Below, one piece after another: positions 46,447 to 49,405 of a stretch of 64,000 nucleotides of DNA (positions within the stretch are counted from its first letter, which is position 1; each line of letters begins with the position of its first letter). The translations under genes and the position numbers were made by a program. Source of the DNA: Phycisphaeraceae bacterium (GTDB lineage: Bacteria > Planctomycetota > Phycisphaerae > Phycisphaerales > SM1A02); the NCBI GenBank assembly GCA_004213555.1, contig SHAP01000004.1, forward strand, positions 62,001 to 126,000, in the 5' to 3' direction. The notes beneath the pieces are model-generated. The model had not been told where the DNA came from. It made no database searches and saw nothing but the letters and a program-made list of their open reading frames with translations.

Positions 46447-49005
46447 ATGGATGTCATGCCCCGAAAAAAGAAGTCCTCGTCCAAAAAAGGCGAGTCGTTG
46501 TTCACTGTTCACCGCTTCAACCAGCTCAAGGCCGCGCTGATGCCACTCTTCGGCCCCGGTCTGCTGTTTGCGGCCATCTTCTGTGCGTTGGCCTTGTTGA
46601 CCTACGACATGGCCGACGCGCCCTCAGAATTCGTGGCTCCGGCCAACGAAGGGGAAAACATCCAAAATGCCATGGGCAGCTTGGGCGCGCTGTTGGCCGC
46701 TCGGCTGTTCGGCACGTTCGGAACGGGTGTGTGGCTGGCTGTGATCGGGGGCATCATGCTGCTGATTCAATCCATCCGAGGACAAGAGACCGACCAGATC
46801 TGGGTCCGGGCGGGTGGCGTCGTGATGAGCACCTTGGCCCTGGCCGCACTGTGGGCTGAATTTGCGACCGGGTTCGGAGTTTTGCCCGACGGAAACGGCG
46901 GCGCTGTGGGCGCTTGGATTGTGGGAGAACTGGGCCCGCGTTTCGGATGGCTGGGCACGCCGATCATTTGCGGCACGGGTTTGGCCATCGGCTTGTGGTG
47001 TGCGGCCGACCGCATGCTCTCTCCTCTCTTGGCCCGACTGCCCTTTGCCAAATTGGTCCAGTACTGCCGAGAGTCCATCACGGTGGTGATCAACCTGGTG
47101 CAGCCCGAGCCAGCGACCGCGGGTGGCGCTCGAGCCGGTGGACGCAAGGCGAAGAAATCCAAGCCCGCGGCCACCGTGGCGGTGCTTGAGCCCGAGGACG
47201 TCGAAGAAGAGTGGGAAGAAGACGAAGACGAATACGAGTTGACCGACGCAGACGAAGAAGATTGGGAGGAGGAAGAGGAGGAAGAAGAAGAGGAGGAAGA
47301 GTGGGAAGAAGAGGGTGAGGACGAGTCGCTCGCCGCAGCCAAATCGGCAGCGCTGGAAAAAATTCGAGAACGTCTCAGCAAACGGAACGAAAACGCTCCT
47401 TTGCCACCACAAGTGCAATACGACGGCAAGTGGAAGTTCCCCCAACTCGATCTTCTGGAAGAAAGCGAGCCTGTTGACGAAGCCGACCGCAGTTTGACCA
47501 TTTCGGATCAAGCCGAGCAGTTGTTGGAGGCCTTCAGTGAATTTGGCATTGACGGAGAGATCCAGGACATCGATGCCGGTCCGACGATCACCCTGTTTGC
47601 GGTCAAGCTGGCCCGGGGCACCAAGGTTGGGTCCATCCGCGGTTTGACCGAAGACTTGGCTCGCGCCATGGAAGTACCAAGCTTGCGGATCGACTCAAAC
47701 ATCGGCCAGGGTCGAATCGGGATTGAGGTGCCAAACCCGACCCCAGAACTCGTTCGGATTCGGGAAATCTTGGAATCAGGGCGAGGGTCCAAGATGGGCT
47801 TGCCCATGTACCTCGGGAAAAACGCGTCTGGGGAACCGATGGTCTATGACCTCACCAAGATGCCGCACATGTTGATTGCGGGAACCACAGGTTCCGGCAA
47901 GTCGGTGTGCATCAACACCATCTTGATGAGCTGGCTGTTCACCAAACGTCCAGATGAAGTGAAGCTCGTGCTGGTGGATCCCAAGCAGGTGGAGTTTGAC
48001 ACCTACAAAGCCATCCCCCACTTGGCGTGTCCTGTGGTGACCAAAACCGACAAAGCCAAGGGTGTCTTGCAGTGGGCCGTGCATCAAATGGAAAGCCGGT
48101 ACACCTTGTTGAAGAACGCCAAGGTGCGCAACCTTGCCGAATACAACAAGGTGGGTGAGGATCCCGAAAAGCTGTGTAAAAAAATGGGAATCACGGACGA
48201 GCGCGAGATGAAACTCACGCCCAAGAAGTTGCCCTTCATTGTGATTGTGGTTGACGAACTGGCCGACTTGATCCTCGAGGAAGGAAAAGACGCCGAGCTC
48301 CCGATCGTTCGAATCGCTCAGAAGGCCCGTGCAGTGGGCATCCACTTGATCTTGGCCACACAACGACCCGAGCGCAACGTGGTGACCGGATTGATCAAGT
48401 CCAACGTGCCGTTCCGGGTTGCGTGCCGGGTGAACTCTGCGCTTGACAGCCGCATCATGCTTGATGTCAGTGGTGCTGAAGTGCTGCTTGGCAATGGTGA
48501 CATGTTGATCAAGGACGGCCCGAAGCTTGTCCGCGGCCAAGGGGCCTTTGTCTCCACCGAAGAAATTGTCCACACTGCAGGCTTCCTTGAAGATGTCGCA
48601 GAGCCGCAATTCGAACGTGATCTGGTTCGGCTTGATGAAATTGCTGAAAGCGACGAAGCCGACCCGTACGACGTTCTGAAAGAGGCTTTGGATGACCCCG
48701 AGTTTGACAAAGCGGTTCGGTTGCTGATTGAACGTGACAGTGGATCCATCACGCTGCTGAAGACCCGCCTCCGCATGGGTGATACACGAGCCAGCCGCAT
48801 GGTGGAACAAATGCGACAAGCTGGCATTGTTGGAGAAGCCAAAGGGGCTGGTGTGGCCAGCGACATCCTGATCGACTTGCCCGGCTGGGAAGACATGAAG
48901 AAACTCATGCAAGCCAAAGACCGGTCCAGCATGCTGGCGGAATACCACGGCGAAGGCGAAGAAGACCTCGACGGCGATGACTGGGAGTCCGAAGAAGACG
49001 AATAA
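46447..49005 (+). CDS. ftsK: DNA translocase FtsK with a long acidic linker
   Basis: 852 residues. It has a basic N-terminus, then four membrane helices (about 33-50, 75-88, 98-118, 123-180), then an acidic stretch at about 252-295, almost only Glu/Asp with some Trp. The motor has Walker A AGTTGSGKS (about 478-486), LVLVDPKQVEFDTYK and VVDELADLILEEGKD (Walker B). A winged-helix gamma domain (LLKTRLRMGDTRASRMVEQMRQAGIVGEA) binds polar DNA sequences. It links division to chromosome dimer resolution with Xer recombinases, one of which lies at 37733. Confidence 0.95.
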   Translation: MDVMPRKKKSSSKKGESLFTVHRFNQLKAALMPLFGPGLLFAAIFCALALLTYDMADAPSEFVAPANEGENIQNAMGSLGALLAARLFGTFGTGVWLAVIGGIMLLIQSIRGQETDQIWVRAGGVVMSTLALAALWAEFATGFGVLPDGNGGAVGAWIVGELGPRFGWLGTPIICGTGLAIGLWCAADRMLSPLLARLPFAKLVQYCRESITVVINLVQPEPATAGGARAGGRKAKKSKPAATVAVLEPEDVEEEWEEDEDEYELTDADEEDWEEEEEEEEEEEEWEEEGEDESLAAAKSAALEKIRERLSKRNENAPLPPQVQYDGKWKFPQLDLLEESEPVDEADRSLTISDQAEQLLEAFSEFGIDGEIQDIDAGPTITLFAVKLARGTKVGSIRGLTEDLARAMEVPSLRIDSNIGQGRIGIEVPNPTPELVRIREILESGRGSKMGLPMYLGKNASGEPMVYDLTKMPHMLIAGTTGSGKSVCINTILMSWLFTKRPDEVKLVLVDPKQVEFDTYKAIPHLACPVVTKTDKAKGVLQWAVHQMESRYTLLKNAKVRNLAEYNKVGEDPEKLCKKMGITDEREMKLTPKKLPFIVIVVDELADLILEEGKDAELPIVRIAQKARAVGIHLILATQRPERNVVTGLIKSNVPFRVACRVNSALDSRIMLDVSGAEVLLGNGDMLIKDGPKLVRGQGAFVSTEEIVHTAGFLEDVAEPQFERDLVRLDEIAESDEADPYDVLKEALDDPEFDKAVRLLIERDSGSITLLKTRLRMGDTRASRMVEQMRQAGIVGEAKGAGVASDILIDLPGWEDMKKLMQAKDRSSMLAEYHGEGEEDLDGDDWESEEDE

Positions 49006-49130
49006 TCGTTCAAAGGGCCACTTTTTCGGTGGCCTCATGCTTCGTGCCTAAAATCTCCGAAGATAGAACCATCAAGGAAGACTTCGTTCGCAACCGGCGG
49101 AGAACCCGACGGCGACGAGCAAAGAACCCC

Positions 49131-49159
49131 TTGACGACCGGTCCCTCCCTATGAAGGAT
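49131..49159 (+). promoter_or_regulatory. Candidate promoter of the small transcription unit after ftsK
   Basis: TTGACG and AAGGAT are separated by 17 bases. The -35 box matches 5/6, the -10 box only 3/6. Transcription would begin near 49166, just before the leader hairpin at 49171. Confidence 0.3.
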
Positions 49160-49170
49160 CGGGCGATGTG

Positions 49171-49232
49171 CCCTTCAGGACGCTGAAGGGGAAAATTCGG
49201 CCGGCGGCGGCTTGGGGCTGCGACGGCTGGCC
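49171..49232 (+). other. Structured leader before the 22-codon ORF
   Basis: A perfect 8-bp stem with a GACG loop (CCCTTCAG and CTGAAGGG, 49171-49190) is followed by a GC-rich stem with pairing GGCC at 49199 and GGCTGGCC at 49225. Together they fill the space between the candidate promoter and the ribosome site at 49246. This is a structural reading only; no known RNA family was recognised. Confidence 0.4.
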
Positions 49233-49245
49233 ATAATTCTTCTTC

Positions 49246-49261
49246 AAGGAGGTGATCCAGC
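49246..49261 (+). promoter_or_regulatory. Extreme Shine-Dalgarno site, 16 bases complementary to 16S rRNA 3' end
   Basis: AAGGAGGTGATCCAGC is the exact complement of GCTGGATCACCTCCTT, the usual end of bacterial 16S rRNA. AGGAGG ends nine bases before the ATG at 49262. Sequence on either side does not resemble rRNA, so this is not the end of a 16S gene. The match length is far beyond an ordinary ribosome site. Confidence 0.7.
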
Positions 49262-49330
49262 ATGAACAATCAAACCCCACACCGGAACCGTGCCCCCCGC
49301 AGAGCGATCACCTGCCGACGGGATGGGTGA
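49262..49330 (+). CDS. Putative 22-residue Arg-rich peptide
   Basis: ATG at 49262 reads 22 codons to TGA at 49330. The peptide is MNNQTPHRNRAPRRAITCRR plus DG, with six Arg and one Cys, so it is strongly basic. Its start is placed precisely behind the extended ribosome site, and a terminator lies 41 bases after its stop. There is no homolog known to me. A control RNA whose ORF is only a vehicle for ribosome binding is an alternative. Confidence 0.45.
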   Translation: MNNQTPHRNRAPRRAITCRRDG

Positions 49331-49370
49331 CCGGCACGTCCGGACACTTCCTTATTTCTCATTACCTTTC

Positions 49371-49405
49371 CCCGGCGGTCGTTCAGCGGCCGCCGGGTTC
49401 GTTTT
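49371..49405 (+). terminator. Hairpin terminator after the small ORF, overlapping the birA end
   Basis: CCCGGCGG (49371-49378) pairs with CCGCCGGG (49390-49397), loop of 11 bases, followed by TTCGTTTT on the plus strand. The minus-strand birA stop lies inside the hairpin. The T tract is on the plus side, so it is read as the end of the small plus-strand unit. Confidence 0.6.

Follow-up and report, generated by a model that had tools for sequence, protein, structure and literature searches.

A conserved structured RNA carrying a very short open reading frame behind an extended Shine-Dalgarno sequence in Planctomycetota

We analyzed a stretch of 64,000 nt from a Phycisphaeraceae bacterium (contig SHAP01000004.1; hereafter the window), in which a mini-gene lies between ftsK (PF01580, + strand, ending at 49005) and a convergent biotin-ligase gene (birA-like, PF03099, - strand). 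An initial annotation, made from the sequence alone, had placed a small transcription unit between ftsK and birA and described leader hairpins, a rho-independent terminator, and a 16-base complement of the 16S ribosomal RNA (rRNA) 3' end before a 22-codon Arg-rich open reading frame (ORF). The flanking genes, the stems upstream of the Shine-Dalgarno (SD) sequence and the terminator agree with that description, and the unit, which has its own terminator, is probably independent; the proposed length of ~240 bases does not hold, as the RNA appears to begin at ~49070 and to span ~330 nt. That description had overlooked the pseudoknot, the promoter and the distribution across the phylum. The elements are arranged from 5' to 3' as P0, P1, P2, P3, SD, ORF, P4/P5 and terminator, and we regard the anatomy listed below as close to certain (MFE, minimum free energy).

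49062-49067, + strand: GATAGA, equivalent in position and letters to the conserved -10 of homologues (GATAAT/GATAGA)
~49070-49405, + strand: whole RNA, putatively ~330 nt, from the homologues' promoter (~7 nt upstream of the 5' strand of P0), the terminator, and a fold better than that of shuffled sequences (z -2.4)
49072-49077, + strand: P0 5' strand UCAAGG, partner 49129-49134 (MFE fold; P0 covariation in 58 homologues)
49129-49134, + strand: P0 3' strand CCUUGA (MFE fold, P0 covariation)
49138-49162, + strand: P1 hairpin, after GACGA (MFE fold; stem kept with different letters in congeners, judged by eye)
49171-49190, + strand: P2 hairpin, 8 bp, GACG tetraloop (changes on both sides in 8/8 pairs)
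49199-49232, + strand: P3 hairpin with internal loop GGCGGC ... GCGACGGC (covariation)
49213-49217, + strand: P3 loop UGGGG, 5' half of the pseudoknot, partner 49275-49279 in the ORF (compensatory pair types in other genera)
49246-49261, + strand: extended SD, 16 nt complementary to the 16S 3' end (sequence match)
49262-49330, + strand: mini-ORF, 22 codons and TGA (ATG 49262, TGA 49328-49330), product MNNQTPHRNRAPRRAITCRRDG (conserved in 4/4 congeners; 10-14-codon homologues phylum-wide)
49275-49279, + strand: CCCCA inside the ORF (+14 to +18), 3' half of the pseudoknot (pairing with the P3 loop)
49282-49343, + strand: P4/P5 hairpin (CCGGA..CGTGCC / GGCACG..TCCGG) enclosing the ORF end (sequence; the homologous P4 covaries)
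49306-49313, + strand: GATCACCT, 8-nt copy of the 16S tail within the ORF, complementary to the SD (sequence)
49371-49397, + strand: rho-independent terminator, followed by a T-tract (terminator detection in the window)

The locus is a conserved structured RNA, as its compensatory changes exceed those of shuffled and slid controls. Changes on both sides are found in 22 of 41 pairs in an alignment of 28 sequences, compared with 13.4 ± 2 after shuffling. An alignment of 96 sequences, which was fitted to the model and whose counts are therefore biased towards it, shows them in 33 of 36 pairs and contains 599 double-change cells, where shuffled alignments have 153 ± 11; sliding the pairing partners by 1-3 columns abolishes this signal. 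The covariance analysis that the initial annotation had proposed for the leader finds covariation in P2 and P3. The P2 loop is mostly GACG across homologues. P0, in which the 5' end pairs with the stretch preceding GACGA, is more stable than expected in 58 homologues (-8.4 vs -6.4 ± 0.24 kcal/mol shuffled), a test in which the window's own P0 was missed by the automatic parse. The MFE fold of the window RNA pairs parts of the P4/P5 region differently from the listed hairpin.

The loop of P3 also pairs with ORF codons ~4-6. The pair type is GUCAC/GUGAC in most of the family and UGGGG/CCCCA in the window's genus, at the same +14 to +18 position, and GUACAG/CUGUAC, GAUAGG/CCUAUC and CGAAUU/AAUUCG are found elsewhere. 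Pairing between loop and ORF is stronger in the native sequences, at -8.46 kcal/mol, than after shuffling (-7.21 ± 0.25 kcal/mol). A conventional column count on the 28 sequences gives zero double changes in the pseudoknot helix, because one pair type dominates that set. Genus g19 (L090, L091, L093 and others) has lost the GACG loops of P2 and P5 together with a recognizable P3-ORF pairing, and has retained the ORF.

The 16-mer AAGGAGGTGATCCAGC at 49246-49261 (+ strand) is followed directly by the ATG and occurs once in the window at 0 mismatches. It has exactly two sites in the 2.0-Mb genome, the mini-gene and the 16S 3' end, and because the second copy is the 16S 3' end, the 16S tail of this organism is truly complementary to the 16-mer (16/16), as had been assumed from the usual 16S tail. 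Upstream of the 41 large ORFs in the window the longest run complementary to the 16S tail is <=8 nt, so the claim of a complement far longer than a normal SD is borne out. Outside the 16 bases the sequence is unlike rRNA, also as first described. A 16S fragment or artefact was rejected, since similarity does not extend past these 16 bases and since the element is both conserved and covarying. Complementarity of 9-16 nt is found in nearly all homologues of the RNA; the run is just 9 nt in 22 of 102, and a perfect 15-16-nt match is not universal, which counts against titration of 16S tails by the RNA, a function close to the second one initially proposed. The full 16/16 match is retained in 4/4 congeners, and the phylum-wide invariant core is only ~AAGGAGGTGATC. 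No conserved partner that sequesters the SD was found among the homologues. The internal copy GATCACCT does not differ among the four genomes of the window's genus and could pair with the SD; no such copy was seen in the inspected homologues of other genera.

The mini-ORF is very probably translated, judging from how its frame is kept. The distance from the start codon to P4, whose 5' arm is formed by the last ORF codons (covariation), is 18, 21, 24 or 27 nt, all multiples of three, in 93 of 96 aligned members, the exceptions being the window's genus and two rows improperly parsed by the script. The stop codon lies exactly four codons inside P4 in 82 of these 93 (TAA 38, TGA 26, TAG 18). Codons 2-10 are free of in-frame stops in 102 sequences, and the +1 and +2 frames contain many. 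Close pairs of sequences also show an excess at third codon positions (211 vs 125/113). Because indels preserve the frame and the position of the in-frame stop is fixed, the ORF is under selection. Other genera have 10-14 codons, with an order-level product M-x(2-5)-[C]DC[TM][KR]GL[HR]x and a more divergent peptide outside the order (RRWL, RRLP, KRGG), so the Arg-rich form with 22 codons is confined to the window's genus. Of the tiny basic peptide initially proposed, a real short ORF behind a very strong SD stands, but the view that a basic, Arg-rich product is what matters is not supported. To our knowledge the mini-ORF is among the shortest conserved ORFs, and it is entangled with the RNA fold.

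All four genomes of the window's genus retain the locus, with 80-90% identity, and divergent genera show weaker conservation. A covariance model built on ten sequences (R1) matches once each in 70 of the 181 family genomes. Its improved successors R2 and R3 match in 74 of 181 family genomes, 247 of 400 order genomes (127 of 163 genera), 72 of 298 class genomes and 59 of 294 genomes of the phylum Planctomycetota; these samples overlap, so the counts are not additive, and from family to phylum there is almost always one copy per genome. Among 20 weak remote matches, 19 yield an SD-like site and a 10-14-codon ORF by automatic readout, and in the twentieth (L249) the script chose the wrong site, AAAGGAGGTGTTCCAGTG and an ORF being readable in its sequence. 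Conservation in close relatives, which the initial annotation had named as its refuting test, extends far beyond the genus. That an RNA gene is conserved as a single copy over a large part of a phylum points to an important role in the cell; the cell biology of this phylum is unusual.

Many members of the order carry a sigma70-like promoter upstream of P0 (TTGCC/TTGACT, 16-17 nt spacing, GATAAT/GATACT). TTG stands 15-18 nt before GATA in 41 of the 65 members that have a -10-like motif, compared with 5.8 ± 2.2 after shuffling. The window's genus has GATAGA correctly placed, and a convincing -35 was not found upstream of P0 there, so the promoter at the window locus is a putative one. At the other end, the homologues too finish with a terminator. 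The gene ftsK lies upstream in ~50 of 70 family loci and the neighbors are variable outside the family; because the neighbors vary, the RNA is not the leader of a conserved downstream gene.

This structured RNA with a tiny ORF is undescribed, being absent from Rfam and not found in the literature searched, in agreement with the initial statement that no such family is known. With all families of Rfam 15, no match above cut-off was obtained in the window region or at seven homologous loci (E<=1), and the model of the Downstream-peptide / glnA (glutamine) riboswitch (RF01704) gives no match at these places either. The best Rfam match, to the Caulobacter small RNA (sRNA) CC2171, reaches 29.5 bits against a gathering score of 75 at L061 1403-1547 (- strand), over the 3' half, and is probably due to chance. 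The literature search, made among open-access journal papers, returned no description of the RNA; the unnumbered Rhodopirellula-1 motif (PMC2864571) was not compared.

Several known systems resemble parts of the mini-gene. Transfer-messenger RNA (tmRNA, RF00023) is likewise a single-copy structured RNA of ~350 nt with a tag-length ORF, whereas the Planctomycetota RNA uses an SD and a start codon, and a tRNA-like 3' end was not seen in it. Identity with tmRNA was rejected, as the carrier genomes have a canonical tmRNA elsewhere, in the window's genome at G000:C8:157998-158345. The dual-function sRNAs RNAIII/hld, SgrS and Spot 42 are independent RNA genes with a small ORF; in contrast, the Planctomycetota ORF is much shorter, paired into the RNA core and conserved phylum-wide. 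Extended SDs occur in many mRNAs of Staphylococcus aureus and share the long SD-antiSD helix in initiation (PMC13009471), which in Planctomycetota is tied to one structured mini-gene. The nearest known design is the cyanobacterial Downstream-peptide motif (RF01704), a structured leader followed by a short ORF in which only the leader is conserved (PMC2864571). Both have a structured RNA before a conserved very short ORF, with structure near the ORF start, but the Planctomycetota RNA conserves the leader, the 10-14-codon ORF and the 3' hairpin, and differs in fold, phylum and its one copy per genome.

We favor, with some confidence, a reading of the locus as a stand-alone mini-gene for a structured RNA that doubles as a mini-mRNA, with fold and translation coupled. 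Fold and translation would then be mutually exclusive. The strong SD would capture the 30S subunit, and the 30S and then the elongating ribosome would open the pseudoknot and P4, so that ribosome engagement may be reported by, or may set, the conformation of the RNA. In its folded state the RNA would restrict translation of the peptide, and this balance could be shifted by a factor or ligand bound to the 5' domain; the effector may be the peptide, the RNA or both. The mini-gene offers a defined system for the interplay of very short ORFs, extended SDs and pseudoknots with the ribosome. Several points weigh against this reading. Coupling as the working principle is inferred from geometry only, and we put it slightly below an even chance. 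The SD has an unpaired probability of 0.40 (RNAfold without the pseudoknot), which is average and indicates no special accessibility. The P3-loop/ORF pseudoknot is weak or unrecognized in genus g19. The excess at third codon positions counts overlapping sequence pairs and is not a formal test of nonsynonymous against synonymous change (dN/dS). Family genera g17, g52, g59 and others gave no covariance-model match (including G019, G062, G067, G078, G117 and G124), which may reflect loss or strong divergence, and in the genomes tested from such genera the SD 12-mer has mostly single or zero occurrences; because several family genera lack a match, the RNA in detectable form is not essential everywhere.

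The most serious competitor, to which we give a smaller though substantial weight, is a riboswitch or protein-responsive leader in which P0-P3 senses a metabolite or protein, the pseudoknot gates the peptide and the peptide is the effector, as in Downstream-peptide RNAs. The aptamer-like conserved internal loops (GGCGGC/GCGACGGC), the GNCG loop in P2, the pseudoknot at the start of a conserved short ORF and the precedent itself (PMC2864571) point that way. However, the peptide drifts strongly between classes (DCTKGLR, RRWL, KRGG), constraint on much of the ORF acts at the RNA level, and the neighbors, not conserved outside the family, give no clue to a ligand. It is unlikely that the RNA instead acts on ribosomes, its extended SD and an entry-side pseudoknot holding a 30S or 70S in an initiation-like state as decoy, hibernation factor or availability sensor while the ORF merely clears the RNA. 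A 16S-tail complement of 9-16 nt, far exceeding the SDs of the window, and a pseudoknot partner at ~+12 to +18 from the start, by our estimate of the geometry roughly where mRNA would enter a ribosome placed at the start codon, are consistent with it; the full 15-16-nt match is not retained (9-nt run in 22/102), and a single gene copy would affect ribosomes only if very highly expressed. Similarly improbable is the version in which the ribosome is the ligand of the RNA, a 30S or 70S docking on the extended SD and translation of the dozen codons resetting the fold; if true, the RNA would sense or regulate ribosome availability and would have no known counterpart.

A trans-acting base-pairing sRNA with an incidental ORF would fit a stand-alone gene with promoter, terminator and a changing neighborhood, but the frame-preserving indels and the fixed in-frame stop show a selected ORF and make this quite improbable. 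We consider an attenuator leader of the downstream gene highly improbable: the ORF resembles a leader peptide and is followed by a hairpin and terminator, but no particular gene is conserved downstream, and the one that lies there is often on the opposite strand, as in the window.

Beyond the sampled lineages, 84,980 genomes were scanned with a pattern, and the matches that the model supports are confined to Planctomycetota or to metagenome-assembled genomes (MAGs) with suspect labels. Pattern matches in Sphaerisporangium, Sphingobium and one alphaproteobacterial MAG lack covariance-model support. A phage-borne element was rejected, as viral contigs gave zero pattern matches, and no plasmid relatives were found. 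Two contigs labeled Proteobacteria (DEBay) and Leptolyngbya sp. PLA1 (L211, L219) bear the Planctomycetota RNA; these labels look wrong, and the DEBay match has coordinates identical to those in a genome of the same phylum as the window (G810).
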